Notes under the pieces: generated by a model | What the model saw: the letters and a program-made list of their open reading frames with translations, nothing else | Database searches by the model: none | Told to the model about the DNA's origin: nothing | Source of the DNA: a virus | Strand: one strand, 5' to 3' | Length of the DNA: 43,230 nt | IMG/VR virus record: IMGVR_UViG_3300030099_002102 | Location: 1-43,230 of that record | Shown: positions 1 through 37,210 of the stretch, piece by piece | Position numbering within the stretch: the stretch's first letter is position 1 | Layout: every line of letters starts with the position of its first letter | Made by a program: the position numbers and the translations under genes

Positions 1-20
1 ACCCAGTAGGAAGATTAATG

Positions 21-8247: not shown

Positions 8248-11040
8248 TTAAATTTCTATTGCAGCATCTACAATTATAGAACCAATAGATTCTACAGCAT
8301 CGCCTTTTACTTGTAAATTATACAAAGCTCTTTGTTGTGCAGCATTTAAATTCATTTTAGCTATTTCATGTGCATACTGTCTATCTGTCATACCTGAAGT
8401 AAATAACCAACCTGCTTCATCTCTATATTGTTGCCATAAATTATTTAAAGCACTTTGATTTATACCTAAAACATTTAATGCATTTTGCCTATTAGCTTCA
8501 TTTTGTATTGCAGTGTTTTGTGTATTTATTTGCCTACGCCAAGCTGCATTAGACTGATTAATCTGTGCTTGCATTGTAGAATTAAATTTTTCTCTATTAT
8601 CTATTAATGATGCATTAAATCTTGAATGAGCATTGGTTTGATCTACGTTAAACTCTTTCATAGAGGCTACTCTATTTGCATTTTGTTGAGCTACAGAAGC
8701 CCCTAACTGTGCAAAAAATTCATCTACTTGATTTTCACTAGTAGCATTAAATTGTTGTCTAGCATTGTCTGCTGCAGCATCTGTAAACAATGCATTAATT
8801 CTAGATTGGTAACTTAAAACTTCACCCTGTTGTTTGTTTGAAAGGTTTGCCATATCCATATTTAAAAAGTTTTGAGCATTTACTACTTGTGCTTGTTGTC
8901 TGTTATTTAAATTAGCCATATCCATACTTGCATATGTTGCAGCATTTTGTAAAGCCATTTTCATTTCAGAGTCTAAGTTTGCTAAAGTCATGTTTTGCAT
9001 AAGCTGTGAGTTATTTAAATTACGTTGTTGTTCTTCATTAAACGTTAGATTGTTTACTTCAGCTACTCTAGCAGCATTTACAACAGCTCTTTGTTGATCA
9101 TTACTAAGTTCTTGCCCTGTAAGTGCAGCATCTATTTGTGCTTTAGACAACTCTCTTTGTTGTTTAAATGACATGTTAGACATAGACACTTGCATATTAT
9201 TTATAGAATCTTGCATAATTCCTTGCTGTTCATTATTAAGGTTAATACCTTCTATTTCAGCATATCTTGTAGCATTTACTATTTGTCTTTGTTGTTCAAA
9301 TCCTAACTCTCTTTCTTGTAAAGAAGCTCTTAACTGTGCATTAGCTAAAGAAGCCTGTTGCATGTTAGAAAGACTTTGAGATTGTAACTTGTAACTGTTA
9401 GTAGAATTAGATAAAGCTTCTTGTTGTCTTGCATTTAGATCAGCTAAACCTATTTTTAAAGCAGCAGCTTGATTAGCCAAAGCAACTTTCTGTTTATTAT
9501 TTATATTAGTAAGATTTATTTCTCTAAATATTTGAGCATCCTGTGCAGCTATAGGTAAAGAAGACTCCATTGCAGCTTGCATAATTGCAGCACCTGCCAT
9601 AGAACTTGCAGATAAACCTCTAGCAGCCATTTGTGCTTCAGCATTTCTTATTGCACCTGCAGCGTATGGTGGAACTTTACCATCAGCAAATTGTGCCATA
9701 AGGTTTGTTAGTTGCCCTTGTATAGTAGCCTCTACAGGTACTTCGGACATTTGTTGTGTTATAGCTTGAGCAGTAGCTCTAGTTTGTTCATCTTCACTAG
9801 ACTGTGCAGCTACCATTGTAGCATTATCTCTTAACTCTGCCATAACTTGTGCAGTGCCTTGGTTAGCAGTTCTAGGATCAATAGGTTGTACTATTTCATT
9901 TGTAGTTATAGAACGTGAAGCCGCATCTATTTTATCATTAAAGTTACCAGTAAAATCGCCTACAGTCGGTGTCTTTCTTCTATCTACACTAGCCATGTCT
10001 GTAGCAACAACACCTTCAGCTTTCTTCTGTTCTATGCTTTCTCTTTGTGGTGCTTGCCCAATAATAGATTCGCCTACAACTGGTCTACCTGTTATCTCAT
10101 CTACAGTATCTGTAAGTGTGTTTAGAGTCTGTGCATTTAAAGCTTGGTTTGTTACATCATTAATAGTATTTGTAGTGCTTGCTACGGTATCGGCATTGCT
10201 TTTAATTGTATAGCCTGCTGCTTGTAGGGCTTGAATTTGTTCGTCACTTATAATTTCTGTAGGTGCTAATTGTGTTGGTCCTAACTGTACGCCTGCAGTG
10301 GTTTCTAATTCACCTGTCTTTACTTCTATATCTGTAGGTTTTATTTTAGCTGTTTCAGGAAGATTAGGGTCGATACCTGTAAGTCCTGCCGTCTGATCAA
10401 ACTGATTTATTACATTTTCGAATCTAGTTTCAAGAGCAGCTTCGCCTGTACCTTGTCCTCCAGTACCCCCAGTGCCTCCAGTACCTCCAGTTACAGTATC
10501 ATTACCTGCACCACCAGTGATAGTATCGTTACCTGCACCACCAGTGATAGTATTATCTGAAGTGCCTGCTGCACCGTCAGGACCGAGTGTAGTATTACCT
10601 CGTAGTATTCTTGTATCTGCTGCATTAACTTTACCATCAGCATTTAAGTCTACCGTAGCGTTTGGACCAAAAACATCTTTAGATGCATTTAATGCAGCTA
10701 AGTCACTTTTATCTATTGCTAAAGTAGAGTTTTCAGTAGGTATACCTGCCTGTGTTGTTTGAGTAAGAAAGTCTGTAGTTCCCTGAGCACCGACACCTGT
10801 GTCCATTGCGGTAGATACTTGCCCTTGAGGAGTAATAAATTGAGAAGGTATAGTATCATTACCTGCACCACCAGTTAAAGTAACATTAGGAGTTACAGGT
10901 CCAGGAGGCTGATTAATTTGATACTGCTTAACCATATCTGTTATCTGAGATTGAGTTAAACCACCAAGAAACATGTTTTGCCTAGCTAAGGCTCCTGCTC
11001 TCATTTGTTTTTCTTTATCTGTTAATGGTACTTTAGGCAT
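8248..11040 (-). CDS. 930-aa Ala/Asn/Gln-rich virion protein with RTX and dockerin-like calcium motifs
   Basis: 930 aa in three parts. Residues 1-200 carry GGAGNDT at 57-63 and two consecutive RTX-type nonapeptides at about 167-184 followed by a GGTGGTGG linker. A dockerin-like calcium loop, DLNADGKVNAADTRILRG, lies at 131-148, with a degenerate partner (IDKSDLAALNA) at 109-119. Residues 200-430 are a plain soluble region. Residues 430-900 are a very long helical region of near-repeats built on [LN]-N-x-[EK]-QQ-[RQ]-x-V-x-N-A, that is, Asn/Gln/Ala-rich coiled-coil repeats without hydrophobic membrane segments. RTX and dockerin loops are known calcium-binding motifs; their use here in a phage structural protein is inference. 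Likely a fibrous or scaffolding-like tail/virion component. SD AAAAAT is weak, but the ATG follows the upstream small gene by 10 bp. Confidence 0.82.
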   Translation of the reverse strand: MPKVPLTDKEKQMRAGALARQNMFLGGLTQSQITDMVKQYQINQPPGPVTPNVTLTGGAGNDTIPSQFITPQGQVSTAMDTGVGAQGTTDFLTQTTQAGIPTENSTLAIDKSDLAALNASKDVFGPNATVDLNADGKVNAADTRILRGNTTLGPDGAAGTSDNTITGGAGNDTITGGAGNDTVTGGTGGTGGTGGQGTGEAALETRFENVINQFDQTAGLTGIDPNLPETAKIKPTDIEVKTGELETTAGVQLGPTQLAPTEIISDEQIQALQAAGYTIKSNADTVASTTNTINDVTNQALNAQTLNTLTDTVDEITGRPVVGESIIGQAPQRESIEQKKAEGVVATDMASVDRRKTPTVGDFTGNFNDKIDAASRSITTNEIVQPIDPRTANQGTAQVMAELRDNATMVAAQSSEDEQTRATAQAITQQMSEVPVEATIQGQLTNLMAQFADGKVPPYAAGAIRNAEAQMAARGLSASSMAGAAIMQAAMESSLPIAAQDAQIFREINLTNINNKQKVALANQAAALKIGLADLNARQQEALSNSTNSYKLQSQSLSNMQQASLANAQLRASLQERELGFEQQRQIVNATRYAEIEGINLNNEQQGIMQDSINNMQVSMSNMSFKQQRELSKAQIDAALTGQELSNDQQRAVVNAARVAEVNNLTFNEEQQRNLNNSQLMQNMTLANLDSEMKMALQNAATYASMDMANLNNRQQAQVVNAQNFLNMDMANLSNKQQGEVLSYQSRINALFTDAAADNARQQFNATSENQVDEFFAQLGASVAQQNANRVASMKEFNVDQTNAHSRFNASLIDNREKFNSTMQAQINQSNAAWRRQINTQNTAIQNEANRQNALNVLGINQSALNNLWQQYRDEAGWLFTSGMTDRQYAHEIAKMNLNAAQQRALYNLQVKGDAVESIGSIIVDAAIEI

Positions 11041-21342: not shown

Positions 21343-24072
21343 TTAGGTGTTGGGTCTTTCACCAACTGACATAAGACCCCTGTTGTTCATAGTTTCTAGA
21401 ACATTGGAGCCTATATATTCTGTTAATTTTTTAGGTATAATGTATTCACCGTTGTGTACATTAACTGGTACTTTACCACCAGATTTAAGATTTGTGCCTG
21501 CTTCGTTAGCTGCTCTTTGAACCATTCTGTTTATAGTGTCTTCACCATAAAGGGCTACTGCAGGCTGAGAAAGTACAAAATCTCCCTCTTTTAAAGTCAT
21601 TGGAACATCATCTGCTCTTGCAGACGGTGGAGCTTTGCCTTCTTTATCGACAAGTCCGTAATTCTTTGTTTGGTTACTATTATACAACACTTTTGAAGTT
21701 TTGTCAAGAATTTTTCCGCCATCTTGCATAAAAGTAAAATTACTCATATCAAAACCAAATTTTTGAGTGTCTGCTTGTATTTCTTCTGCAGATTTTACTA
21801 CTCCTGTATAATGTGTTAAATCTGTAATTTTGTTTTCAGCAATATATGCTAAATCAGCGTACAAAGATTCATACATAGCTTCTAAACCTTCTTTTGTAGG
21901 TTGAAAAAATCTACGATAAACTCTACCACCATCCTGTGTGGATTGATCCTTACCGTTATAGTAGTCTGGTCTATTTAAAAGCATTTCTCTAGCAGATAAA
22001 CCTTCTTGATCTACATTACCTATAGTATAATATACTCCTGCACCTTTTTTACCTTGGGAGTAGTGTATTTGTAAATCACCTTTAAAATTAAAACCTGTTG
22101 TTTTTTCTAACTCTTGCATATAAGGTATCATAGGAGATAATAACTTTTTAGAAAATTCTACGTTAGATGGGTTTGCTTTACTAGGATCATAATCTCCCTG
22201 TGAATAGGTGTTCATTTTAAACTCATCAAAATCAAATGAAGCGTAACCTGATTTATATGAGGGTTTAGATGCTGTTAAAAATTGTAAAGCCATTGCTGCA
22301 ATACCTAATATGGGGTTTACAGAAAACATGTAAGATGTTGCTCCTGATATAGCTGCTTGTTCTACATCTCCAGTTCTTAAAAATGATACTACTGCAGCTA
22401 TTGCTGCTGCACCTACTGCACCTTGAGCATCGGCTGCAGTTTCAAAACCAGGAAGTTTTTCAACACCTAGAAATGAACCCAACTGTTCAGCACCATATTC
22501 TGTAATTAAATGTTGTACACCTGCAGTAAGAGCAGCCTCCTCATCACCGCCTAAAGCTAGTACACCTGCTATAGAAGCTGCAGCACCACCAAAACCTCTC
22601 CATCTTGTAGCAGTAGCTTCGGCAGCAGCATCGGCAGCCGTTTGACCTCCTCCTGCGTTTATTATAGCTTTACTAGCAGCTTCTCCTGCCTTTAAAGCAT
22701 AAGACTCTATAACTTCAGTCTTAATAAACTGTGTACCACCTGCAATAGCAGCCTTTCCTGCATCGCCAGTAGCTACACCTACTAATAGTGCTGCAGTAAA
22801 TTCATCATATAAGTCTCTTAGTGTTACATTGTATGTGCCATCTTGCAGAGTAAATAAGTGTTTGTCTCCTAATTTTGCTATAGCTTCTTTTATATTATCA
22901 AAAGCAGAATTTTCTGCTCCATAATAAATATCTAAATTTGCATCTAAAGTATTATGTGGAGGATATTTTTTAGGATCACTCATTATTTCTTCAGCTACAG
23001 TTCTAGGAACACCTCTTTCTACATAATCTGCTACACCACCATAATAAATATCTAAATTTGCATCTAATGTATTACTTTCAGGATATATGTTTCTATTATT
23101 TGTAAAAGTATCAGATACTGTTTTAGAAATACCCCTATCTTGATAAAGGTATGTTTCAGCTTTAGCACCCTCTCCTACCATTACGTCACTTAAAGTTCCT
23201 AAAGTTGTTAATGTAGCTAGTTCACTTTCACTTAAACCTGAATCTGTAGGAAGATTTATTGCATTAGAGTCACTAGTTAAATTGCTAGTATCTGTATAAT
23301 CTAATGTAGCTTTTTTACCAAAACCAAATAAATTTTCAAATGAATCAGATACTCTAGGGCTTACGTAACCTTCTGGTGGTCTGAAAGAGGATGTTTTTAC
23401 TTTAGGTACATCTACAGGTTGAGTATACTGCATAGTCCTTTGTTCAAAATTTGCACCACTTTCGCCAGGAGCAGGGTTTACAGAATAAAAACCTTGTGTT
23501 GTATCTACTGTATTTGCATTAGAAATGTTATCTACAAAACCTGTAGGTTGTACTGTTTCTGTAGGTAAGACTGAAGATGTAAGGTTTGGTTGAGTTATGT
23601 TTTCTTTTACTTCTCCACCTTCTTGAAAACCAAAGTCTGCCATAAATCCAGGTGCCATTTGTTTTGCTGTAAAAAATGCAAAAGGGTTAGACCCTGCTAC
23701 AGTTTTTTGATATGCAAGACCTAATAATGGAGTATCAGCTATAGTTCTACTTGTTTCAGAAGCAACTTTATAAATGCCTTTTAATACTTCATCTACAGTT
23801 TGCCCTTCATATCTAACTTCTGGATTTAACTTTTCTAATTCTTCTATCTTTGGTTTATTTATTTCTACTGGAATACTTTTTATATCTTCAGCTAAAGATT
23901 GATCTACCTCATGCATGCGTTCAAGAAACTGTTTATTATTACTAATTGAACGTAATACTTCTAAATTTGAAGGATCACCCCTACCTGCATAATTTGAAAA
24001 ATCATTCATAAATGAAAAATCATCTCGAGGAGCTCTTACTACAATTTCGTCTATACCTCTAGGTTTTGTCAT
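21343..24072 (-). CDS. 909-aa probable internal virion protein with a long Ala/Gly-rich apolar region
   Basis: 909 aa. Residues 310-386 hold two copies of a ~40-aa unit ending NTLDANLDIYYG (at 334-345 and 374-385). Residues about 425-600 are Ala/Gly-rich and largely apolar (VGVATGDAGKAAIAGG, IAGVLALGG, GAVGAAAIAAVVSFL, PILGIAAMALQFL), suggesting membrane-interacting helices as in ejected internal proteins. Near the C-terminus are PMTLKEGDFVLSQPAVAL and VPVNVHNGEYIIPKKL, segments I have seen in other marine phage virion proteins. It begins inside the end of the small overprinted gene (14-bp overlap), with the portal stop just before it. Probable ejection/internal protein; function inferred. 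Confidence 0.8.
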   Translation of the reverse strand: MTKPRGIDEIVVRAPRDDFSFMNDFSNYAGRGDPSNLEVLRSISNNKQFLERMHEVDQSLAEDIKSIPVEINKPKIEELEKLNPEVRYEGQTVDEVLKGIYKVASETSRTIADTPLLGLAYQKTVAGSNPFAFFTAKQMAPGFMADFGFQEGGEVKENITQPNLTSSVLPTETVQPTGFVDNISNANTVDTTQGFYSVNPAPGESGANFEQRTMQYTQPVDVPKVKTSSFRPPEGYVSPRVSDSFENLFGFGKKATLDYTDTSNLTSDSNAINLPTDSGLSESELATLTTLGTLSDVMVGEGAKAETYLYQDRGISKTVSDTFTNNRNIYPESNTLDANLDIYYGGVADYVERGVPRTVAEEIMSDPKKYPPHNTLDANLDIYYGAENSAFDNIKEAIAKLGDKHLFTLQDGTYNVTLRDLYDEFTAALLVGVATGDAGKAAIAGGTQFIKTEVIESYALKAGEAASKAIINAGGGQTAADAAAEATATRWRGFGGAAASIAGVLALGGDEEAALTAGVQHLITEYGAEQLGSFLGVEKLPGFETAADAQGAVGAAAIAAVVSFLRTGDVEQAAISGATSYMFSVNPILGIAAMALQFLTASKPSYKSGYASFDFDEFKMNTYSQGDYDPSKANPSNVEFSKKLLSPMIPYMQELEKTTGFNFKGDLQIHYSQGKKGAGVYYTIGNVDQEGLSAREMLLNRPDYYNGKDQSTQDGGRVYRRFFQPTKEGLEAMYESLYADLAYIAENKITDLTHYTGVVKSAEEIQADTQKFGFDMSNFTFMQDGGKILDKTSKVLYNSNQTKNYGLVDKEGKAPPSARADDVPMTLKEGDFVLSQPAVALYGEDTINRMVQRAANEAGTNLKSGGKVPVNVHNGEYIIPKKLTEYIGSNVLETMNNRGLMSVGERPNT

Positions 24073-24289
24073 CCCTTTTAGCTTCCGCCCTCACCCTGTC
24101 CTGTAATTGGAGTAACATTCCCAGTAAAGCCGCCTTCCCCTGGAGTTGGCGTAGTTCCTGTTCCGATTGTGCCACCACCAACGCCTGATGGGTCAGCAGG
24201 ATTTGCTCCTGCAGGAACTCCTTGAGGGGCTCCCATGTTTGGTTGTTGTTCACTAGGGGCAGTAGTCTCTTCGCCAGTTGTTTGTCCAT
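24059..24289 (-). CDS. 76-aa helical protein overprinted on the portal 3' end
   Basis: 76 aa, read in a different frame from the portal gene over 212 bp and running on into the start of the 909-aa gene (14-bp overlap). It is amphipathic and helical: LLPLVNNNQTWEPLKEF, then LTHQALVVAQSEQELRQLQGKAALLGMLL. The pattern ELRQLQG-KAALLxxLL is one I recall from small proteins encoded after portal genes in other phages. The start is preceded by AAAGGA with a 7-nt spacer, a good ribosome site. The overlapped portal tail is low-complexity (P/G/T/N-rich), as expected when one frame is overprinted. Function unknown; a small portal- or packaging-associated protein is possible. Confidence 0.75.
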   Translation of the reverse strand: MDKQLAKRLLPLVNNNQTWEPLKEFLQEQILLTHQALVVAQSEQELRQLQGKAALLGMLLQLQDRVRAEAKRDDKT

Positions 24290-26213
24290 TGTTCAATCCT
24301 TTCAGCATTTCAGCAAATATTTGTGCTTCATTCATGTCATTAACTAGTTCGTCAGGGTCCATGTCCTGAGCTATAGCTAACTCTTTAATCAACGTAGGTA
24401 ATTTAACAAAAGGAGCAAGCATAGGATTAGTTACTGTTTGTAGTAACATTGTTAATCTTTGCGATCTTACTTCTTTCATCATTACAGACGATGTACCTTT
24501 AGGCTTGATCTCCAAATCACCCATTATGTCTTCTTCATCCTCTGAAAACTGCATATTCCACATAAACATACTTTCTCCTAGAGGTCTTAGAAGATGGTCA
24601 TCTATATTTTTAATTACGGTTTTAATACCTAAAGAGGCAGAACCCATTAACATAGATAATCCTGATGCAGTACGACCAGTGCCAGTCACGCCTGTTTGTC
24701 CATGACTTATACTTGGTATACCTGTTTCTTCGTCAGCAAGTTGTCTTGCCTTATCATACATTTGTAAATTTTCTACAGCAGTGCTCGGAAACTTAATTCC
24801 TGTAATACCTGTACCAGGAGCACCTGACTGTCTTCTAAATATCTTTCCAGGGTATATATCCATAGACTGCCCTGGAACCATCATGTTTTCATCTACTTCA
24901 AAAATAAGATTACCTGCTAATGCTAAATTATCAATAGCCATACGTACATGTCCATTCATAAGAAGCTGTGCATCCTCCATATTTTCAGCTACACCTATAC
25001 CAAAAAATCTATATGGGTTTTTTTCGTAAGGCACAACTTGATATGGTAATCTTTCTGGTACAAATGGGTTGAGAACTACTCTTAGTATCTCATTACCACA
25101 AATCCAAGCATTAATATGCACTTGATCTAGGTCAGATGTAGATTCTGGTATGTCTAATTGTATTTCTTTAGCCATTTTAGCATCTAAAACACCCCAATAT
25201 TCTAATACTTCATAACGACCTTCACTGTATGTAGGATCATTATCTGCATATAAATCATGCTCAAAATACCTTTCTTCGTATTGTGTGCCCATATATAGTG
25301 ATGCTTCTATAGCATCTTTATCAAAAAATGGTCTATTAGCAAGGTCACGTAGCTGTGATCTGTTCATTCTATGACGTTCTACTACATATTCTGCATCATC
25401 TAGGCTTACAGCAGAAGGGTCAGGATATAAATCCCAACAAGAAACAGCATTTAATCTAGGCACTAACTTGTCTTGTGGGTCATAGAATCTAGTACCATCA
25501 TCATCTTTAGACCATTTGTGTATTACTTTGTTGTGGTTAAAGGGTCCTTTAACAATACCTGTACCTAACAAACACTGTTCAAAGATACCTTTTCTGAGTT
25601 CGGAAACTGCTGAAGCATCTAGTAATTGGTCATGGATTAGTTTCTCCATTTTACGAGCTGCTTCCTTAGCAGGAGATAGCTGTGGTTCTCCTATGTTAGA
25701 TGGTCCTGCAGCAAGATTAGCTTCAGCCATATCTTTTTCATATGGACCTAATTCTAATTCTTGTTGTTGTGGTTCTGTAGCTTCAAAAGCTCCTGCAGGT
25801 AAGTCTCTACCATCTCCTTCAAACCCATAAGGGTCTAGTCCTTGTTGTTGATCTAAAGGCGTTTCTAGGTGAACAAACTCTTCTATGCCTTCAGGCACAG
25901 GAGTAGGGTCTACAGAAATCGGAACTTTACCATTAGAAAAAAGTATATCTACTAACTGTCCAAAAGCAGCAAGCACTTTTACTTTTGTTATTTTAACAGT
26001 AACTTTAGAACGTTCTGATTGCCTATAGTCTTCACTATCTTCTGAAGTACCTCTATAGTTTTTGTAAGCACGTAACCAACGTTGTTCATCAGCCAAACGA
26101 CCATCTTCTGCTTGTTTATACTTTGATCTTATGTAGCCTGCTAAACCGACCATTTCCTCATCGGTAATGTCTTTTTGTTCGCCAGTGCCTATTAGTTCAC
26201 CTATCTCAGCCAT
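24078..26213 (-). CDS. Portal protein
   Basis: 711 aa. The gene lies between terminase/recombinase and scaffold, the standard portal location, and has the typical podovirus portal length. Recognisable segments are KVKVLAAFGQLVDILFSNG near residue 90, a long acidic insertion, LLMNGHVRMAIDNLALAGN, and TGRTASGLSMLMGSAS followed by VIKNIDDHLLRPLGE, the stem/clip-type helical portion of the portal fold. The last 70 residues (642-711) are P/G/T/N-rich, disordered, and overprinted by the 76-aa gene. The protein forms the dodecameric DNA channel at one vertex of the capsid. Confidence 0.88.
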   Translation of the reverse strand: MAEIGELIGTGEQKDITDEEMVGLAGYIRSKYKQAEDGRLADEQRWLRAYKNYRGTSEDSEDYRQSERSKVTVKITKVKVLAAFGQLVDILFSNGKVPISVDPTPVPEGIEEFVHLETPLDQQQGLDPYGFEGDGRDLPAGAFEATEPQQQELELGPYEKDMAEANLAAGPSNIGEPQLSPAKEAARKMEKLIHDQLLDASAVSELRKGIFEQCLLGTGIVKGPFNHNKVIHKWSKDDDGTRFYDPQDKLVPRLNAVSCWDLYPDPSAVSLDDAEYVVERHRMNRSQLRDLANRPFFDKDAIEASLYMGTQYEERYFEHDLYADNDPTYSEGRYEVLEYWGVLDAKMAKEIQLDIPESTSDLDQVHINAWICGNEILRVVLNPFVPERLPYQVVPYEKNPYRFFGIGVAENMEDAQLLMNGHVRMAIDNLALAGNLIFEVDENMMVPGQSMDIYPGKIFRRQSGAPGTGITGIKFPSTAVENLQMYDKARQLADEETGIPSISHGQTGVTGTGRTASGLSMLMGSASLGIKTVIKNIDDHLLRPLGESMFMWNMQFSEDEEDIMGDLEIKPKGTSSVMMKEVRSQRLTMLLQTVTNPMLAPFVKLPTLIKELAIAQDMDPDELVNDMNEAQIFAEMLKGLNNGQTTGEETTAPSEQQPNMGAPQGVPAGANPADPSGVGGGTIGTGTTPTPGEGGFTGNVTPITGQGEGGS

Positions 26214-26214
26214 T

Positions 26215-26412
26215 TTAGTAGTCTTTTTCGTCAGCTAAAGCCATGAAGTTAGAATCTATTTGATTCTTACCTGAAAGGCTTGCAGCGTTAACAGTAGACT
26301 CTTCGGATGCGGTGTATTTTTTATTAACCCAACTCTCCATTTTTTCTCTAGAAAGTTGTGCTTCATTTTCCATACCCATATCACCCTGTTTGTATTTGCT
26401 CATTAACGGCAT
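26215..26412 (-). CDS. 65-aa hypothetical protein between recombinase-fusion and portal
   Basis: 65 aa, hydrophilic, starting MPLMSKYKQGDMG and ending ALADEKDY; no membrane segment or domain recognised. Its first 32 bases overlap the end of the 1012-aa gene, and it ends 1 bp before the portal start. A consensus ribosome site (AAGGAG with a 6-nt spacer) supports the ATG at 26412; an internal Met (26403) is an alternative. Probably a small head-assembly or DNA-packaging helper. Confidence 0.7.
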   Translation of the reverse strand: MPLMSKYKQGDMGMENEAQLSREKMESWVNKKYTASEESTVNAASLSGKNQIDSNFMALADEKDY

Positions 26413-29400
26413 TTTCTTCTCCTTGTTGGTTGGTTGATAAATTTAACTTATTCATTTGATTTCTTATTTCTTCTGCTTTAGGGTCTTTAATAAATTTTTT
26501 AATTATTTTGCCCCCATATTCATCTTCTATTCTTTGTGCAGCATCTCTTCTTCTTTGAACAGTAGCTTCTCTTTCAGGAAGAAATTTAGTTATTTCTTCA
26601 TCTGATGTTCTTCTTGCAATGTCTGGAGCAGCACCTGCTAATTCAGATTCACTTAATTCTTCCATTGCACCTGCAAAAAAATCTGGGTCTCCTGTACCGA
26701 AAGCACTTGCTGCAATAAAACTTCTTCCTACATCTTTAAGTTTTTCTTTATAAACTTCTCTAGTAGTTACTTCTTTTTCAGGTGCTTTTGTTTTACTTAT
26801 TAATTTAGCTATTACTTCTGGTGATGATTTTTCTAAAAAAGTTCTTGTTTCTTCAGGATCAGCACTAGGAGTAAACCCTAATTCGTCTGTTGGTAAAAGG
26901 TTTCTACCTAAAACATCTTTACCTAGAGTGCTCATATCAGCAAAATAACTTCTAGTTCCTAATTCTATAGCAGCCTCAAGACCAATAGCCGATGCTCTAG
27001 CACTAGTGCCATAAAAAGGAATTATAAAAGCTGCACCTTTTCCAAAACCTTTTAATGTAGTATTTAATAATTTTACATACTTGTGTTCATTTGTAGGTTT
27101 ATATCCACCTTTTATAGTTTGTTTAAAATCTCCTTCTGTTGTATCTTCTACATCATCTATATCGTTAAATATAACAGCAGACCTTTTTGCAGTTCGTTCT
27201 ATTCCTTTTGCTACTACGATTTGGTCTGGATCAGGGTAAGCAGCTTGAAATACCTGATTAAAACCAGTAGATCGTATTTCAGGAACAAAAGGTGTAGATG
27301 TTCTTAAATCTACAGTGCCATCTTTTTTAAACTTAATTTTTTCTTTTAATGGAGTTTCTAAATCCCCATCTTTTAATAATTCTTGTTCAGAAAAAAATAC
27401 TACATCATCTATAATACCTTGATCATTAAAAAATTGTAAATAAGGTTCAAGCCTCATTCTGTTTAACACTTCTTCTGGATATATTCTTTTTAAGTTATCA
27501 CTAACTTCAGGAAAAGCATCAGGGTTATCATTAATTACTGATTTAAGATAGTCTTTACTAATATGACTAAAATCTTTATTATCACCTATAGGCTGAATAG
27601 ATATAGCAATTCTATCTACTATTTCTCTTATATTTAAATCTCTACCTGAAAGATTGGAATATCCTACAGAAAATTTTTGACCTTGTTTAGTTTTTAAAAA
27701 ATTATCTAAAGCATCCTCTATCATTACTTTTTGATATTTAAATCTTTCTGCACCTGAGTTAGCAACATTAGGAGGATATTGTAAATAATCTAATTGGTCT
27801 ACTATTCTTTTTGTTAAATAATCAAATCTAGAAACTTCTTCTAAAGTAAGAAATATATCATTTACAACTTTTTTATCTAACTTTAATTCTGCACCTTTAT
27901 TACCTAAAAATTTTGTTCCTGAAAATATTTCAGACAAACCTTTACTGTTATTATCCCAACTACTAGAATCCCAGTCTAACATGTCTCCTGCATTGTATTT
28001 ATATATAGCTGCTTCATCTAATAAATTACCTAACATTTTCTTAACATTATTATTATATCTATTAAAATCTAAAGCATCTATAGATTCTTCTACAGCTTTT
28101 GTTGCATTATTTTCATCTAGTATTATATTCTTTTTAATTTTTGTTTCAGATTCTCTATCATACATATCATCAATAGCATCTGTTTGTTTTTTATCAAATA
28201 CTGCCTGAGCTATTGCAGCCTTGTTCCAATTACCCATCCTAGCTCTATCTATTTTTTCTTTTGTAGAATAGTCTGGAAAATTTCCTATAGTAGGTTCTTT
28301 TGTACCTTTAGGTACTTTTATATCTAATTTATCAGAAGTTACACCTAATTCTATTTGTTTTAGTCTATCTACCTGATCGTCTACAGATAGTATCTCTACA
28401 CTGGGAGCAAATTTTTGATTAAAACTTTTACCTGATTGTTTGTACCTACTTGTTTTTGTAAACTTAGAAATCTCTTCGTCTGTTTTTAAATCTATTTGTT
28501 TAATATTCTGCTCTACTATTTTTTTATTTACAATTTCTTTTTTTCTATTTATTAATTTTATGTTTTCATCTATCTCTATATGTTTTTGATAAGTTCTATC
28601 ATATTCATAAAACTGTCTTTGAAAATCTAAATGAGTATCTAATATGTCTGCTTGTTCAGGAAGTATGTCAAATTGTTTTATGATACTACTTCTAGGATTT
28701 AAAGCATCAGAAGCATAAAATACTTTCATTAAGTTATCTTTATGACCTAATATTTCTTGAACATATTTAGAATCAAGACCTGCTTGTATAGCCATAGTAG
28801 CCCAAGCCTTTCTAAATTTATGAGTTTTTTCTCTGTTCCATACTTTAATATCAAACAAGGCTTCACCGTTGGGTCCTCTTTTTTGTAATACTTTGTCTAG
28901 CCTACCTAAGACTACATTATCAGATACAGGTTTTGATATATCTGTAGGTGATGGAAACAACAGAGAATTAGGTTTTAATTTTTTTAATTTTACTAATTCC
29001 ATTAAATCTTTCTTCATAGTTTTAGACATAGGCACTATTCTTTTCTTTTTACCTGAACCTCCCTCACCTTTGCCTCTTTCTATATATATTAAGTTTTTGT
29101 CAAAATCTATTTCTTTTAATTTTAAAGAACTAAGATCACCTACTCTAGCTCCTGTATGTAATTGCATCTTCATTAAAAGATAATAATCATCTCCCATATT
29201 TTTTAGTTCATCTAAAACTGCATTGACACTTATAAAATCTCTGGCATTTTTTTTAGAAACACTTATCATATTCATGCCTGATTCAATTACATTAGATTTA
29301 GGCAGATTTTTTATGTTGTTTTGCATAGCCTTATATTGCTTTTTTTGCAAAGGAGACCAATCACTTTGATCTGAGTTAGACCATTTGATTGTTTCATATC

Positions 29401-29419
29401 CGTATGTTTTAGTTGCCAT
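26381..29419 (-). CDS. Tyrosine recombinase domain fused to a ~750-aa virion-like protein (1012 aa)
   Basis: 1012 aa. Residues about 60-250 are a tyrosine recombinase catalytic domain: Arg92 in HTGARVGDL, a lysine-rich beta hairpin (KKKRIVP, 124-130), His200 and Arg203 in THKFRKAWATMA, His226 in EILGH, and the nucleophile Tyr235 in KVFY. This is a full R-K-H-R-H-Y set. Only about 60 residues precede it, too short for a normal core-binding domain. Residues 260-1012 are unrelated to integrases: helical, charged, with an apolar segment near residue 790 (GFGKGAAFIIPFYG) and a basic C-terminus. Integrases are usually 300-400 aa. Position between terminase and portal suggests it is made late with virion proteins and might be packaged. 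Alternative: an integrase whose fused tail acquired a virion role. Confidence 0.85.
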   Translation of the reverse strand: MATKTYGYETIKWSNSDQSDWSPLQKKQYKAMQNNIKNLPKSNVIESGMNMISVSKKNARDFISVNAVLDELKNMGDDYYLLMKMQLHTGARVGDLSSLKLKEIDFDKNLIYIERGKGEGGSGKKKRIVPMSKTMKKDLMELVKLKKLKPNSLLFPSPTDISKPVSDNVVLGRLDKVLQKRGPNGEALFDIKVWNREKTHKFRKAWATMAIQAGLDSKYVQEILGHKDNLMKVFYASDALNPRSSIIKQFDILPEQADILDTHLDFQRQFYEYDRTYQKHIEIDENIKLINRKKEIVNKKIVEQNIKQIDLKTDEEISKFTKTSRYKQSGKSFNQKFAPSVEILSVDDQVDRLKQIELGVTSDKLDIKVPKGTKEPTIGNFPDYSTKEKIDRARMGNWNKAAIAQAVFDKKQTDAIDDMYDRESETKIKKNIILDENNATKAVEESIDALDFNRYNNNVKKMLGNLLDEAAIYKYNAGDMLDWDSSSWDNNSKGLSEIFSGTKFLGNKGAELKLDKKVVNDIFLTLEEVSRFDYLTKRIVDQLDYLQYPPNVANSGAERFKYQKVMIEDALDNFLKTKQGQKFSVGYSNLSGRDLNIREIVDRIAISIQPIGDNKDFSHISKDYLKSVINDNPDAFPEVSDNLKRIYPEEVLNRMRLEPYLQFFNDQGIIDDVVFFSEQELLKDGDLETPLKEKIKFKKDGTVDLRTSTPFVPEIRSTGFNQVFQAAYPDPDQIVVAKGIERTAKRSAVIFNDIDDVEDTTEGDFKQTIKGGYKPTNEHKYVKLLNTTLKGFGKGAAFIIPFYGTSARASAIGLEAAIELGTRSYFADMSTLGKDVLGRNLLPTDELGFTPSADPEETRTFLEKSSPEVIAKLISKTKAPEKEVTTREVYKEKLKDVGRSFIAASAFGTGDPDFFAGAMEELSESELAGAAPDIARRTSDEEITKFLPEREATVQRRRDAAQRIEDEYGGKIIKKFIKDPKAEEIRNQMNKLNLSTNQQGEENAVNEQIQTG

Positions 29420-31090
29420 CTAATATCCAAATATAGGGTCTTGCACCTCATACCTATCAAACTCTTTAGGTTTTCTAAACCTAGGATGATAGTATGGGCT
29501 GTTAACTAATCTTGTCATGCACATATATCTTAAAGCATCATAAGCATGATCTTCTGCTTTTGTATCTACATCCTCTGGGTTTGTTTTACTTAGAGGTAGT
29601 GTAGGTAAAGTTCTTATCAACTGGCTACAGTGATTAAATATTCTAAGTCTAGGTTCTCCCATATCATTCATACCTAAACGTTTGTGCATCTCTATCTTAC
29701 CTGCCAGTCTGTCTCTGTTAGAAGCCATCCATCTTAGGTTAAACCTATTCATGGATTCTGCTATACTTAAACCATGTCCTGTTCTACTAAAACATGATTC
29801 GTCTAGCACTGCTGTTTGCATGGTAGGATCATCATACTCTAATTCCATAATCCTCTCTGCTAACCCTTCTCCTGTGTAACCTTTTCCGTAAAGCTCTCTA
29901 TATATCCATAGGTTACCATCATAATCGACAGCCCCCCATAAAACACAAGAAGGACTAGAGTAACCATAATCTGCAGCCCTAATACGAGCCCAAGACCTAG
30001 GAATCTCAAAGGGGTCAACAACATGTACTGTACGATCAAACTCAGCAAATGCTGCACCATCTGTAACATCCCAATCTCCATCTAATAGTCTTCTTCTCTC
30101 TACTTCTGGTAGAGAATATAACATAGCTTCATATTCCCCTGAAGCTATAAGATAGGGGTTATCCGTTAGTCTTGCAGGGATGAATCTTCTTTGGAAGAGG
30201 GGTTTTCCTGCTTTTTCTTGGGCTGAGGCTCCGTATCTGAGGATAGTACCTGATTCAACATCTTTAGCCCAAAAAGGCGTATTTGGTTCGGCAGCATCAA
30301 TATACATCTTTTTAACCCACCAACCACCCATTCCACCTGGGTTAGCTGTGCAACGCATGTACGGTATAATGCTTTGATCCGTTGTACGGAGTCTTGAACG
30401 AAGGTACTCCCATACGTAAGGAGTTGGGTAATGCGTGATTTCATCAATCGCAATCCAGTTAAAACTTTGTCCTTGATATCTTGTAACATCTGTGTCCCTA
30501 TCTAAATATGAAAATAAAATCGTAGCCCCTGATGGGAATACCCAAGTCGATTTACTTTCTCTAAATATAGCTTCTGGGAAAGCCTTTTTATATAGTTGCC
30601 TACTCTTGTCTATAAGCTCTGTTAGTTCGCCCAATGTTCTTCTAAGAAGCAACCCTCTATGGTTTGGGTTGTGGGCATATCTTAATGCGTCTGCAAGTAA
30701 AGCATATGATTTACCTCCACCTGCTGCACCACCATAAAGAACATCACGTTCAGGTGCTGCTAAGAACTCCATCTGAGGACCTGGATTCGGTTTGAACGCT
30801 ACTTCCTGTTCTGCAACAAGCTTTTTCACTGCTACAGGAGCATCTGCAAGCACATCCTCTGTCATTGCAGCTTTCCCTTGTATCGCCTTGTCCAAGTGTT
30901 TGAACTTTTCTATCTTCTCTTTCTTTAATTGTTTCTGCCTCGATAGTTGGTTCTTGTGTTTTTTAATCTTCTTATCTCTATACCGCAACTGGGCTAGAGC
31001 AGCTCTACGAGCTTTTTCTTTAGCTGATAATCTATATCGACCTTTCTCTCCTTTTTTGAGTTTAGGTCTTCCTTTCTTAGGTGTTTCCAA
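29420..31090 (-). CDS. terL: Terminase large subunit
   Basis: 556 aa. ATPase domain: Walker A GGAAGGGKS at 120-128, Walker B WIAIDEITHYP with Asp216/Glu217. RNase H-like nuclease domain: Asp374 in AADYGYS, Asp430 in AVLDES and Asp518 in DHAYDAL are the expected metal-binding residues. The N-terminal 70 residues are very basic; a KKGRPKLKKG stretch resembles an AT-hook core (GRP flanked by basic residues), an unusual extension that could bind AT-rich DNA. It starts 14 bp inside the end of TerS and ends directly before the recombinase-fusion gene. It cuts and pumps DNA through the portal. Confidence 0.95.
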   Translation of the reverse strand: METPKKGRPKLKKGEKGRYRLSAKEKARRAALAQLRYRDKKIKKHKNQLSRQKQLKKEKIEKFKHLDKAIQGKAAMTEDVLADAPVAVKKLVAEQEVAFKPNPGPQMEFLAAPERDVLYGGAAGGGKSYALLADALRYAHNPNHRGLLLRRTLGELTELIDKSRQLYKKAFPEAIFRESKSTWVFPSGATILFSYLDRDTDVTRYQGQSFNWIAIDEITHYPTPYVWEYLRSRLRTTDQSIIPYMRCTANPGGMGGWWVKKMYIDAAEPNTPFWAKDVESGTILRYGASAQEKAGKPLFQRRFIPARLTDNPYLIASGEYEAMLYSLPEVERRRLLDGDWDVTDGAAFAEFDRTVHVVDPFEIPRSWARIRAADYGYSSPSCVLWGAVDYDGNLWIYRELYGKGYTGEGLAERIMELEYDDPTMQTAVLDESCFSRTGHGLSIAESMNRFNLRWMASNRDRLAGKIEMHKRLGMNDMGEPRLRIFNHCSQLIRTLPTLPLSKTNPEDVDTKAEDHAYDALRYMCMTRLVNSPYYHPRFRKPKEFDRYEVQDPIFGY

Positions 31091-31526
31091 GTGCTTCAGC
31101 CTCTACATCTGATAAGTCTAACGCTTCTGCTTTTTTTGCAGGTAACAAAACAACAGCATGTAAATGTTTGTTTTCTGTTACTACCTCTTGTCGTTTAGAT
31201 ATACCACACCTATCAAGTATGTCAGTTGCTGCTTCAAACCTAAGTTTCTGTCTAGCTATTGGTTCTTCTGTTGTTCCTGATAAAGCATCCTTTATCTGTC
31301 CTACTGCATTAGCTGTTGTCGTTGCTAGCAACTCTTTTGCTCTGTCTATAATGTGAGGTCGCATAGCTTTCGATACTGAAGACCTTGAGGACTCCGAATA
31401 GCCTGCTTGCAATAGACTTTGGGTGATATTCCCAAAGGTTTTTTCTCCTTCCGCAAAGTATGCGTCAAGAAAATTTTGTTGTTTTTTTGTTAACTCTTGT
31501 GATTTTTTAGGTTGTGGTGTTAACAT
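31077..31526 (-). CDS. terS: Terminase small subunit
   Basis: 149 aa. The N-terminal segment LTKKQQNFLDAYFAEG followed by QSLLQAGYS and a helix is the winged/HTH DNA-binding pattern of small terminase subunits (Terminase_2-like). The middle is helical (oligomerisation) and the C-terminus is acidic. It overlaps TerL by 14 bp, which is the expected pairing. TerS recognises the packaging site and controls TerL. Family name assigned from pattern, not from a search. Confidence 0.85.
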   Translation of the reverse strand: MLTPQPKKSQELTKKQQNFLDAYFAEGEKTFGNITQSLLQAGYSESSRSSVSKAMRPHIIDRAKELLATTTANAVGQIKDALSGTTEEPIARQKLRFEAATDILDRCGISKRQEVVTENKHLHAVVLLPAKKAEALDLSDVEAEALGNT

Positions 31527-31852
31527 TATCTTGGATATACCCTACCGCCATTGGCGTATCTTTTGTTTTGTGATATATATTTCATAACTCCACCTTCTCT
31601 TGCAAAGGTTTTAACATTAGTAGGCTTACCTCCTACTCCTTGTGCTTTTGATCTTTTACGTCTTACAGCACTAGCTATCTGTTTTTTAGACATTCTGTTT
31701 GCTTTAGCTCTAGGAACACACTTAGGATATTTTCTTTTAGAGCCTTTAGCAGACTTTCTACCACAAGATTGAAACTTACCGTTTTTCTTTTTGGCTCCTA
31801 TGTCTACCCAGTCTCCTTTAGGTCCTTTACCAAACCATTCTTTTAGGCTCAC
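31526..31852 (-). CDS. 108-aa basic Cys-containing protein (DUF5872-neighbour type)
   Basis: 108 aa, strongly basic (Lys/Arg-rich). It begins SLKEWFGKGPKGDWVDIG, then CGRKSAKGSKRKYPKC with two cysteines, then RAKANRMSKKQ. I recall this type of SLKxWFG / CGR / KYPxC protein from cyanophages and large algal viruses, where it neighbours DUF5872-type proteins. The C-terminus NKRYANGGRVYPR is nearly the same as the C-terminus of the 167-aa gene four genes upstream. It overlaps TerS by 1 bp. DNA binding in the virion or on the packaged DNA is inferred from charge. Confidence 0.78.
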   Translation of the reverse strand: MSLKEWFGKGPKGDWVDIGAKKKNGKFQSCGRKSAKGSKRKYPKCVPRAKANRMSKKQIASAVRRKRSKAQGVGGKPTNVKTFAREGGVMKYISQNKRYANGGRVYPR

Positions 31853-32235
31853 TTATATCCTCCGCCACGTTTTTTGTATGTGCGAACTAACCATGCATTA
31901 GCATAGGCTGAAGGGTAAACATCAAATTTTCTTTTAGCTTCTGCTTTTACCCTAGCGTACAAAGAAGGGTTATTAGGAGTAGGACCGCTTTTTTTTTTCT
32001 TCTTTTTCTTTGCTGTAACTTTAGTTCCTTTTTTCATGTTTTGAATAGGACCACCTACTCTTTTAGATGGTCTAGCTTTTTTCTTTGCAGTCTCAGATAA
32101 ATCTTTAAAATGAAATAGTTTTTTACTATTTTTAGTATGAGTTTTACCTGTGTGCAAAGTACCATCTGACATTTTGTGGGTACTGCCAGTCCATTCTGTA
32201 CCATTTCTTAAGTAATGTTTTACGCCTTTTGCCAT
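31849..32235 (-). CDS. 128-aa basic protein with a DUF5872-like C-terminus
   Basis: 128 aa, very basic, with a run of lysines in the middle. The final 40 residues contain PSLYARVKAEAKRKFDVYPSAY-type sequence ending in AWLVRTYKKRGG, which matches my memory of the DUF5872 signature of phycodnaviruses and marine phages. Function unknown in the family. It overlaps the next gene by 4 bp (ATGA-type), so the two are coupled. The Lys run and overall charge suggest binding to DNA or an acidic partner; this is inference. Confidence 0.78.
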   Translation of the reverse strand: MAKGVKHYLRNGTEWTGSTHKMSDGTLHTGKTHTKNSKKLFHFKDLSETAKKKARPSKRVGGPIQNMKKGTKVTAKKKKKKKSGPTPNNPSLYARVKAEAKRKFDVYPSAYANAWLVRTYKKRGGGYK

Positions 32236-32236
32236 G

Positions 32237-32536
32237 TTAACACTTCCACCTTCTTCTTGCCTGCCTTATGCGAGAGTTTGGATTATTTCTTGTTTTGGCA
32301 GAACTTCGTTTTAGTTGACCTAATGATCTCGCACAATAACTTTTTCTTCTTTTAGCAGCTTTACTGCCTTTTTTTACTTTGCCAGTTACGGCTGTTTTTA
32401 ACTTAGAGCCAGGATTTGCTTTACGATAAGCTCTAACTCCTTTAGCTGTCATACCTGCACCAGACTTAGTAGGTCGGTAATTAGCACCCTTACCTTTAGT
32501 AGTTCTACGTATAGGGTTTTCTTTTTTTCTAGCCAC
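32237..32536 (-). CDS. 99-aa histone-like basic protein (DUF6321-like)
   Basis: 99 aa with about one third K/R. The segment SGAGMTAKGVRAYRKANPGS, then LKTAVTG and KRRKSYCARSLGQL and a terminal RRRWKC is, from memory, the pattern of the DUF6321 family, found in marine phages and algal giant viruses. No biochemical function is known to me. The two Cys and high charge could allow DNA or RNA binding. It lies 1 bp before the DUF5872-like gene and overlaps the preceding gene by 1 bp. Confidence 0.78.
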   Translation of the reverse strand: MARKKENPIRRTTKGKGANYRPTKSGAGMTAKGVRAYRKANPGSKLKTAVTGKVKKGSKAAKRRKSYCARSLGQLKRSSAKTRNNPNSRIRQARRRWKC

Positions 32537-32898
32537 TACGTAGTTCCCATAGGTTTTCTTGGGTTGGGCATATTAGCACTTCCACCATACTTCTTACCTT
32601 CAGACGTATAGGTTTTCATTTTGCCACCAATAGACATTTTTCTTCTGGTCTTACATACGTTACCGCCTGTGCCCATGTCCATATTTTTTTTAAATCCTTT
32701 AGCCCCTACTTGAATAAGATAATCTTTTCTGGTAACTTTATCGTCACCGCTTAGGTCAGTTAGACCACCAGTTTTCATATTCTTGGCTGTTCTGGCTGCA
32801 GCAGCAAAATCTTCTTCTTTAGGTGCACCTGGGTCACCTTTCTTTCTCATCTTTTTGCCACTTCTTCTTCTTTTGTTTATGTTTTCATATAGTGACAT
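32536..32898 (-). CDS. 120-aa basic protein of the SLYxNINKRR type
   Basis: 120 aa, basic and Gly/Met-rich. The N-terminus MSLYENINKRRRSGKKMRKKG is a pattern I know from marine phage and algal virus proteins of unknown function (SLYxNINxRK). A middle helical segment (EDFAAAARTAKNMKTGGL) is followed by DGDDK-like acidic residues and a GGxxM tail. It overlaps its neighbours by 1 bp at both ends (32536 and 32898). Likely part of the same basic-protein set as the genes around it. Confidence 0.75.
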   Translation of the reverse strand: MSLYENINKRRRSGKKMRKKGDPGAPKEEDFAAAARTAKNMKTGGLTDLSGDDKVTRKDYLIQVGAKGFKKNMDMGTGGNVCKTRRKMSIGGKMKTYTSEGKKYGGSANMPNPRKPMGTT

Positions 32899-33401
32899 TA
32901 CATTTTCCCCTTTGATGGGTATATTTTACCACCGTTGGCATATCTTTTATTCATGGATGCGTACATCTTTCCACCGCCCATCATGCCATTCTTTTTTTTC
33001 TTTTTAGTAACCATGCTACCATACATCATGTCTTTTTTCTTTTTATCACCATGGACCATACTTCCGCCCATCATGCCTTTTTTCTTTTTAACTGAACTAC
33101 CGTACATCATACCCTCTCTGTCTACTTTTAATTTTTTAGGTAACTTCTTACCTTTAGCTTTAGCTGTCTCTCTAATACTTTTTGAACCTCTTAAGTCAGT
33201 GCCCATTTTGTACTCAGCATCTGACATAGACATTTTTGTATCTAAAAGCTTATCTAAAATTTTTTGCTTAGACATCAGTCCTGTTTCATACATACTTACG
33301 CCTTTACTTAAATCTCCTGCTTTTAAATCGCCTGTTTTTTGTAGATTCTCTAACGTCTCAAAAAAATCTGATACTTGTTTTGCTGTTGGTTTCTTTGCCA
33401 C
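32898..33401 (-). CDS. 167-aa basic protein with KKK-MMGG / MYGS repeats; first late gene
   Basis: 167 aa. The N-terminal 100 residues are a normal helical domain; residues 100-165 contain four near-repeats of lysine blocks followed by GMMGGSM, DMMYGSM or GMMGGGKMYASM, an unusual Met/Gly/Lys pattern. The C-terminus NKRYANGGKIYP matches the tail of the 108-aa gene. It is the first gene behind the late promoter at 33542-33570, with a 130-nt leader. An RNA- or DNA-condensing virion protein is a reasonable inference; metal binding by the Met clusters cannot be excluded. Confidence 0.76.
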   Translation of the reverse strand: MAKKPTAKQVSDFFETLENLQKTGDLKAGDLSKGVSMYETGLMSKQKILDKLLDTKMSMSDAEYKMGTDLRGSKSIRETAKAKGKKLPKKLKVDREGMMYGSSVKKKKGMMGGSMVHGDKKKKDMMYGSMVTKKKKKNGMMGGGKMYASMNKRYANGGKIYPSKGKM

Positions 33402-33589: not shown

Positions 33590-33618
33590 TTGACAGTATG
33601 AATATTTGCATGTACAAT
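33590..33618 (+). promoter_or_regulatory. Divergent sigma70 promoter for a small RNA
   Basis: TTGACA (33590-33595), 17-nt spacer, TACAAT (33613-33618), five of six at the -10. The -35 boxes of this and the leftward late promoter are only 19 bp apart. Predicted start near 33625, inside an inverted repeat (TTAACCC/GGGTTAA at 33623-33629 and 33635-33641). Confidence 0.8.
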
Positions 33619-35317: not shown

Positions 35318-36445
35318 CTAACTAGCCAATTCAGTAAATAAAGGACTATCGATTGCCTTCAATACTCGACCTTCTCGTCTTAGTCTCGTCTCGTGCATTT
35401 TGCCCTTTTTTTGGTGCATAGTTTTAATTTGCCCTTCTTCATTTTCATAACTATCTAAGGAAGTGCCAGCGTGCGTTGACCAGTTTGTCAAGGCATTGTA
35501 AAGGGTGTATAAGTTTCTGCTCATACCAGTCTTTAACTCTTCCTCCCATTTATGAATAAGAAAGCCCAACTCTTTTTGATTATACTGTTTTTCAATGTCT
35601 TCATCATTGTCGACTGCTGTTTGTAATTGAACATTGTCAGCAAGTTTTTTCTTACATAGCACTTCTTTAAAGAAATGAATTACCTGCTCATCAGTCACCT
35701 TTGTATTGAGCCACCTTCTAAAAACATCACCTTGATTTGCAAAGTTGGAAACAGCATTTTTAATTTTGCTTACTTCCTCTTTATAATCGAATCCTGAGGT
35801 ATGTTTTTTCATAGCGTAATATTGCCTTTCGCCACCGAATACCATTGAATTGCGGCAATAATCACGATAAGCACCAGTAAACACTTGAAATTTCCATGAT
35901 GAGTTTGTTGAGTTCAATACATCAATTCGCATGTTTAACTTGCCTGTTCCTTCAATGTCCATTTCATGGTCAAGAAGGTGAATTGTTCGGATTGCTTTGG
36001 TATCTTCTTCATAGGTTCGGTCTTCAATATGAACCCTAGCTGTAGATATGTCCTCGCACTCAACAAGTTGGTCTGTTACTTCTTCAAATAATGGCAAGTG
36101 GTCAACTAGTTTGTAGTCCTTACTAGGCAGGCTAACAAAAGAAAATTTTTGCTCGCTTTCCTCATCTCTGAAAATGCCCTTCCGTCCTTCAACCTTCTCG
36201 AATTTTTGGGTGTAGGGATTTAATCCATAAACATCACCCTCTGAAAATTTACTTTTAAAGATTGAATGGTCATTTATATCAGAATGAATTTTAAATTGAC
36301 TATCCCAGTCAGTCCGCAAAATCTCTTGGCTGCTTTCTTGGTTGGGGTTGTGAAGGTCAACTTCTGTTGTGCCATGTTGTGGCGTTGGGTTTGTAAAGTC
36401 CTCAATATCTGTTTGAACTGGGTTTTGTATGTTATCATTTTCCAT
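35318..36445 (-). CDS. DUF932-like phage/plasmid protein (375 aa)
   Basis: 375 aa. The first 50 residues are acidic and probably disordered. The central part has the features I know of the DUF932 (phage/plasmid-like) family: a GxxRDYCRNSMVFGG segment (the usual RxxCxNxM motif near residue 190), preceded by beta strands (GKLNMRIDVLNSTNSSWKF) and followed by helices (EEVSKIKNAVSNFANQG and FFKEVLCKKKLADNV). Lengths of 300-400 aa are typical. Its function is not settled in the literature I know; it accompanies DNA metabolism genes in phages and plasmids. SD AAGGAAAAAATT before the ATG. Separated from the upstream gene by a bidirectional terminator. Confidence 0.75.
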   Translation of the reverse strand: MENDNIQNPVQTDIEDFTNPTPQHGTTEVDLHNPNQESSQEILRTDWDSQFKIHSDINDHSIFKSKFSEGDVYGLNPYTQKFEKVEGRKGIFRDEESEQKFSFVSLPSKDYKLVDHLPLFEEVTDQLVECEDISTARVHIEDRTYEEDTKAIRTIHLLDHEMDIEGTGKLNMRIDVLNSTNSSWKFQVFTGAYRDYCRNSMVFGGERQYYAMKKHTSGFDYKEEVSKIKNAVSNFANQGDVFRRWLNTKVTDEQVIHFFKEVLCKKKLADNVQLQTAVDNDEDIEKQYNQKELGFLIHKWEEELKTGMSRNLYTLYNALTNWSTHAGTSLDSYENEEGQIKTMHQKKGKMHETRLRREGRVLKAIDSPLFTELAS

Positions 36446-36526: not shown

Positions 36527-37210
36527 TTAATGTTTAAAAAATCCAATTATTGTTTTCCTTTTTGTATGTGAGCAAAGTTTACAATCCAAACATTTTATCC
36601 CTTGAGTTTGCTCTGGGCATATTGTTATTTTCTTACCTAAAGGAGTTTTAACGGCTGACAAATCAACTTCCATTTTTTCAAATTGTTTTTTGGTAAATGG
36701 TAAAACAACAGTGGTGGGGATTTTGGTATCTGACAAAATGTCGGCTTGTTCAAGTGTATCGGCTGACAAATTAATAGTAAATCCTTTGTTGTTTGCGTAC
36801 CTAATTAAATTTAAATTATGGGCTGACAATTTTCTTTTCTTACCTGAGACTGTTGTGTGGTGGTGCGTATAACAAATAACTTTACCGCCCCTATTGGCTT
36901 TTACAAGTTGTTTTAGTTTCTTGGCGTCAATCTTGTTTTTCTTAACTACCAAATCACCGACAACATTGTGTCGCCATAAACCTTCACGATTATGTTTTCT
37001 AAAGTAAGAAACTTGTTTTACAAATTCTGACCAGTTGTCATTATTATCTTGGCTGTATCTATTCCAATGTAAACGAATAGGGAAGTTGTCTCCATAACAA
37101 CCATTGTTTTTGAGGCTACAAGAAGCAGGACAAGTTTGTCTTGGACTGTAAGAAGTAGGCATTGCTCCCACTTTTTTTGACTGTGTATTAGTTACAAATT
37201 TATAAGTCAT
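36527..37210 (-). CDS. 227-aa Cys-rich phage protein (DUF7227/Gp88-like pattern)
   Basis: 227 aa. N-terminal SPRQTCPASCSLKNNGCYG and C-terminal ICPEQTQGIKCLDCKLC give two clusters of three or four cysteines, likely for a metal or iron-sulphur centre. Between them is a region with THHHT and LNLIRYANNKGFTINLSADTLE, alternating strands and helices. From memory this resembles phage proteins annotated as DUF7227 or gene-product-88-like, of unknown function. It is coupled to the 47-aa gene before it (stop/start TAATG). Confidence 0.75.
   Translation of the reverse strand: MTYKFVTNTQSKKVGAMPTSYSPRQTCPASCSLKNNGCYGDNFPIRLHWNRYSQDNNDNWSEFVKQVSYFRKHNREGLWRHNVVGDLVVKKNKIDAKKLKQLVKANRGGKVICYTHHHTTVSGKKRKLSAHNLNLIRYANNKGFTINLSADTLEQADILSDTKIPTTVVLPFTKKQFEKMEVDLSAVKTPLGKKITICPEQTQGIKCLDCKLCSHTKRKTIIGFFKH

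Follow-up and report, generated by a model that had tools for sequence, protein, structure and literature searches.

Tyrosine recombinases are known from phages of the HMO-2011 type as integrases located ahead of the primase (PMC9038755, PMC6918029), and a survey of HMO-2011-type phages placed the integrase nowhere but upstream of the replication module. The canonical example is gp09 of HMO-2011, an enzyme of 292 amino acids (aa) which directly precedes the primase; the int products of CRP-1, CRP-2, and CRP-3 belong to the same class. Other members of the superfamily are the Xer recombinases (XerA, XerC/D, and XerH). The nucleocapsid of baculoviruses contains VLF-1, a protein from the tyrosine recombinase superfamily with a part in genome packaging (PMC11654684); it is made as a structural/packaging component and is essential.

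Portal-adjacent polymorphic and polyvalent proteins, packaged or predicted to be packaged, are also already known (PMC5576092, PMC5512222). Among MuF polymorphic toxins, which are encoded next to the portal and have one constant-like and one variable end, SPP1 gp7 is a portal-bound minor capsid protein (PMC5576092). Phage polyvalent proteins are multidomain polypeptides encoded near late or portal genes and predicted to be packaged and delivered (PMC5512222). The locus described here shares traits with each of these systems.

The Phage and Its Head Operon

The window, i.e., the whole stretch of 43,230 nucleotides that was analysed (IMG/VR record IMGVR_UViG_3300030099_002102), is the 43.2-kb record of an HMO-2011-type marine podovirus. 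Among annotated phages, its terminase large subunit (TerL) and portal are nearest to those of HMO-2011-type phages of SAR11, SAR116, and Roseobacter, with identities of ~50–54%. A 48.1-kb relative, 98% identical in the overlap, overlaps the window at both ends and supplies the remainder of a genome of ~55 kb. Among the genes beyond the window is one for a DNA polymerase of family A into which a DnaJ motif, CXXCXGXG, is inserted (L152:4574-6145), a described trait of HMO-2011-type phages (PMC6918029).

The head genes lie on the minus strand. A probable terminase small subunit (31077–31526; Terminase_2, 4e-5, just under the Pfam cut-off) and TerL (29420–31090) are followed by a gene for a protein of 1012 aa (26381–29419) and by the portal (24078–26213), a match to the PHROG head-tail adaptor. 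The space between TerL and portal is here called the slot, and its occupant the slot gene; the start of the latter directly adjoins the TerL stop codon, TAG, and its end falls within a 65-aa open reading frame (ORF; 26215–26412) preceding the portal. The arrangement agrees with the original prediction, made on this DNA alone, of a tyrosine recombinase fused to some 750 further residues and encoded between terminase and portal: the ORF is real, single, and on the minus strand, with TerL ending at 29420 and the portal starting at 26213.

Upstream of the operon there is a divergent promoter-like pair, consisting of a perfect sigma-70-type consensus on the minus strand (33570–33542, a consensus match only) and a second one on the plus strand (33590–33618) with 11 of 12 sigma-70 positions. 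Between this pair and the terminase genes, positions 31526–33401 (minus strand) encode five small, strongly basic proteins with a net charge of +18 to +33. Two of them end in YANGGRVYPR / YANGGKIYPSKGKM, and slot proteins of one family of relatives (L045) end similarly, in YAMGGKVY; such shared ends are a possible candidate for a targeting tag. On the other side, the portal is followed by a 909-aa protein without a known family (21343–24072, minus strand), which is highly variable among near-identical phages (39–73% in partial matches). Elsewhere in the window, a 930-aa protein (8248–11040, minus strand) matches RTX calcium-binding repeats (PF00353, 6.5e-9), and a DUF932 protein (35318–36445, minus strand; 3e-16) stands next to a DUF7227 protein (36527–37210; 3e-60).

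The Recombinase Domain

The Pfam family Phage_integrase (PF00589) covers residues 69–237 of the slot protein (28709–29215, minus strand) with E=5e-21, and PHROG integrases match it with values down to 3e-31. When a profile of 25 relatives was compared with solved structures, it matched XerA, XerC-like, and IntI4 proteins with values of 1e-15 to 1e-19, and the residues of the active site were in register. The full-length predicted structure is of moderate quality (pLDDT 67), and its N-terminal part matches the Tn1549 integrase, XerA, and IntI4 in the PDB. Xer recombinases are the best matches by both sequence and structure, and they share with the slot protein the catalytic domain and the order of its residues. 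The slot protein differs from them in its shortened N-terminal domain, its 750 extra residues, its being encoded by a phage accessory gene, and the lack of a detectable dif-like site; its scores stay far below the NCBIfam equivalog cut-offs (62.7 vs 220 bits for XerA, 45 vs 335 for XerC).

Within the PF00589 fold the R-K-H-R-H/W-Y set of the tyrosine recombinase superfamily is complete and Xer-like, being composed of R92, K117, H200, R203, H226, and Y235. Five of these assignments had been made correctly from the sequence of the window; the sixth, which placed the catalytic lysine at residues 124–126, was wrong, as K124–K126 are unconserved and K117 is found in 24 of 24 homologues. Conservation was counted in 24 members of family A, the group that contains P0001, which includes homologues down to ~20% identity. 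R92 is kept in 23/23, K117, R203, and Y235 in 24/24 each, and H226 (H-III) in 23/24, while the position of H200 holds His in 14/24 and Tyr in 8/24. Homologues have thus kept the catalytic residues, the loss of which had been named as evidence against the prediction. Calculated along the full length, dN/dS amounts to 0.19 between P0001 and L001, 0.12 with L004, and 0.35 with L097, and it ranges from 0.26 to 0.58 in other pairs of the family. Taken together, residue conservation and dN/dS argue that the recombinase is under selection and most likely active as an enzyme.

Just ~65 residues, predicted to form two helices, lie ahead of the catalytic domain, compared with ~100 residues in a full core-binding domain. 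With a region this short, a normal core-binding domain is probably absent, as the original prediction also had it.

The C-Terminal Part

The same fusion was sought in related phages and is present: in ~25 contigs there is one uninterrupted ORF of ~1000–1150 aa, or a fragment of one, at the same location. An assembly artefact or a frameshifted gene pair was rejected on this ground. Residues 385–735 (27215–28267, minus strand) are predicted with confidence to form a helical domain (pLDDT 83.7, pTM 0.82), the model of which has no match at E <0.4 in the PDB or a viral structure library. Comparison of the C-terminal part with PHROGs, INPHARED, PDB folds, and viral folds returned no known structural protein. 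The notion that the remaining ~750 residues are of the type of internal virion proteins was not supported, since no known virion protein resembles them by sequence or predicted fold. Nothing in 50,697 phage records corresponds to the full-length slot protein; the catalytic domain alone finds matches, and the C-terminal part has no significant one.

The most hydrophobic segment lies at about residues 796–826 (26942–27034, minus strand). Its relative position is common to other slot proteins. When 13 slot families without mutual similarity were compared, the 31-aa stretch of highest hydrophobicity, as a rule rich in Gly, Ala, and Ile, fell at 0.72–0.90 of the length in 12 of them, both in families with a recombinase and in families lacking one. 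The pattern is suggestive only, because it was observed post hoc and some of the 13 families are perhaps remotely related. Most slot proteins have a common design, with a variable N-terminus, a Gly/Ala-rich hydrophobic segment at 72–90% of the length, and a short tail.

The two ends of such proteins are exchanged as modules. In family B, a second group of slot proteins, one pair (L130/L131) is 18% identical in the N-terminal and 82% in the C-terminal part, and another (L126/L131) is 85% identical in the N-terminal and 22% in the C-terminal part. These identities indicate that the recombinase and C-terminal parts in family B are exchanged independently and have different histories. The conservation of the C-terminal tail may in part be due to hitch-hiking with the adjacent gene at a recombining border.

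A Hypervariable Slot between TerL and Portal

Contigs retrieved by TerL and portal similarity were used for the comparison of the slot; most are short metagenomic contigs and some are near-duplicates. The closest relatives have TerL and portal separated by either ~220 bp, with the 65-aa ORF only, or ~3.2–3.6 kb with one large gene, and the 65-aa ORF is present in filled and empty genomes alike. In filled genomes of the nearest clade, with the exception of L032, the TAG stop of TerL is followed directly by the in-frame ATG of the slot gene, whereas empty genomes of this clade (L007–L042) have TAA and 17–27 bases with a ribosome-binding site. Read-through of the TAG in filled genomes (29420–29422) would yield a TerL-recombinase fusion.

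The slot can be filled in one phage and empty in another when their TerL DNA is 97–99% identical. Mapped onto a tree of TerL DNA from 45 contigs, the filled or empty state requires at least six to seven gains or losses: seven changes are needed, and six of them are forced by well-supported branches. Where both slots are filled and TerL DNA is 98.3–99.9% identical, the slot proteins are only ~30% identical, barring one identical pair. The slot gene is thus accessory, one occupant of a hypervariable slot; as it is missing from near-identical phages, neither circularisation, nor the genome ends, nor packaging can depend on it. The suggestion that it circularises incoming DNA is consequently ruled out in the sense of a required circularisation or genome-end enzyme, and a protelomerase was rejected for the same reason.

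Eighty-one slot fillers were collected, nearly all of them directly between TerL and portal; searches seeded with L010 and L016 added little new. Family A has 26 members of ~1000–1150 aa when complete. Family B has 31 members, the complete ones ~600–745 aa long, and represents degenerate tyrosine recombinases whose domain is mostly below Pfam detection; the profile of this family aligns with that of family A over 147 columns (hhalign, probability 94%, E=1.4e-7). Three single proteins (L016, L044, and L047) carry a recombinase domain at different places, and the L078 group has a weak PF00589 match (0.0045, under the Pfam cut-off). Overall, PF00589 is matched by 21 of 47 slot representatives (E up to 0.05). 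Outside family A the fillers thus include degenerate recombinases and also non-recombinases, among them the L045 family of ~200–355 aa.

In more distant, annotated relatives the same interval holds ordinary genes, namely, a GDSL hydrolase in phiM6 (L085:4223-5830), which also has PhoH there, an FAD-dependent oxidoreductase in RHph_N3_19 (L086:2174-4723), and small genes in HTVC033P and HTVC103P. The oxidoreductase and the hydrolase mark the terminase-portal interval as a general accessory site, and, given such ordinary enzymes, the slot may be merely permissive.

Family B also bears on the proposal that the slot protein is a head protein which uses the recombinase fold for DNA binding and performs no strand exchange. 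Both arginines are invariant in this family, but H-II is Asp in 16 of 19 members and conservation is poor at the Lys position; within the P0001 family, a single member carries Gln at H-III. In the P0001 family, however, R, K, R, and Y are invariant, which DNA binding alone would not require, and this explanation is considered improbable for the slot protein.

The turnover of the slot also recalls homing endonucleases, and the recombinase might be a selfish cassette that drives its own insertion between TerL and portal. The precise presence or absence of a single gene at one site, the rapid replacement, and a GC content of 29.5% against 39–41% in TerL and portal are all in keeping with such an element. 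However, the slot is equally variable when filled by non-recombinases, the junctions show no repeats or recombinase sites, and homologous recombination in the conserved flanks would suffice to move its contents. A self-inserting gene is therefore given little credence, about as little as the co-opted fold.

Relation to Phage Integrases

The slot gene is distinct, as judged from position and sequence, from the canonical integrase of HMO-2011. Instead of lying directly upstream of the primase or replication module, it belongs to the head operon; the place of gp09 holds only a 97-aa ORF before the Toprim gene at 41042. The two proteins are 21% identical over 192 aa, and gp09 has no counterpart of the C-terminal part. 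Descent of the slot gene from the usual phage integrase was rejected owing to this low identity and the different place, which is in line with the expectation that it is unlike the normal integrase of these phages.

The prediction that no attachment site or tRNA lies next to the gene was likewise confirmed. There is no tRNA or Rfam match in the window, and att-like repeats at the slot borders do not exceed chance, a scan that a short att core without tRNA similarity could escape. The window has three weak 11-(6..8)-11 palindromes (dif-like 11-6-11), about as many as random sequence contains. The proteins scanned included no recognisable repressor, many small ORFs having no match at all, and the slot protein has no PADLOC match to a known defence gene. 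GTDB contigs were scanned with short peptide patterns, six each for the slot protein and TerL; no relative in a bacterial genome was confirmed and no prophage relative was found, but with so few patterns this negative is weak.

These results have to be set against lysogenic integration, which stays the main rival because the slot protein is the sole tyrosine recombinase in the genome: across the window and the 98%-identical record that covers the remaining genome, it is the only match to PF00589. In this explanation, a temperate phage would have its integrase placed in the head operon, the C-terminal part would serve regulation or partner binding, presence and absence would distinguish temperate from lytic variants, and diversity would reflect different att sites. 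The full catalytic set fits an integrase, integrases as a class diversify and move, and CRP-3, of the same phage type, lysogenises (PMC6918029). Nevertheless, the known integrase has another place and only distant similarity, neither tRNA, att-like repeat, nor repressor was recognised, the GTDB patterns gave no relative, and expression with the head genes together with 750 extra residues would be unusual. On balance, an integrase is regarded as unlikely.

Possible Packaging, Delivery, and Role

A gene adjoining those of both terminase subunits could also encode a VLF-1-like protein, expressed along with the head genes, whose task would be to resolve or process newly replicated DNA so that it can be packaged. 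VLF-1 offers a precedent as a superfamily member that is a structural component, homology beyond the superfamily not being implied. The slot gene differs in being accessory and highly variable: near-identical phages do without it and the phage encodes its own endonuclease I, so that any packaging role could not be essential, and the very high diversity would be odd for such a role. A function of this kind seems quite improbable, if slightly less so than a selfish cassette or a co-opted fold.

The portal-side position, the C-terminal design common to non-recombinase fillers, and the polymorphism together recall portal-associated polymorphic and polyvalent proteins. The first two of these traits lend the idea of a head-delivered protein indirect support. 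Like polyvalent proteins, the slot protein is a multidomain polypeptide whose gene lies among late head genes, and it combines a recombinase, a helical domain, and a hydrophobic segment. A recombinase or integrase domain is not mentioned in the main text of PMC5512222. Compared with MuF systems, a recombinase takes the place of toxin domains, the variable part is N-terminal, and the gene lies upstream, not downstream, of the portal; the MuF domain is absent from the Pfam matches of the 47 slot representatives.

The reading preferred here, tentatively and as somewhat short of an even chance, is that the slot gene product is a polymorphic, probably head-delivered recombinase effector. For catalytic activity, head association, delivery, and target, we infer the following course. 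The slot gene would be transcribed together with the TerL and portal genes, giving an active N-terminal tyrosine recombinase with a long nonenzymatic C-terminal part that includes the hydrophobic segment. The C-terminal part would most likely attach the protein to the procapsid or portal, a location in the virion being plausible, and a few copies would enter the next cell along with the DNA. There, the recombinase would act at specific sites, either in the incoming genome or in host or rival mobile DNA. It is more doubtful, yet possible, that tailed phages carry a polymorphic, head-delivered, site-specific recombinase with a swappable N-terminal enzyme and a C-terminal particle-loading part, so that each strain would take its own DNA-rearranging enzyme into the next cell, directed at its own genome or at resident rival elements.

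Should the slot protein prove to be part of the particle, tailed phages would have their first example of this kind, and site-specific recombination would join the activities that phages may bring into the cell along with the genome. Ready natural comparisons are offered by near-identical phages that differ in whether they have the gene. Even if the protein is not present in the virion, the locus represents a slot for recombinases whose turnover outpaces that of the adjacent terminase, in one of the most abundant groups of marine phages.
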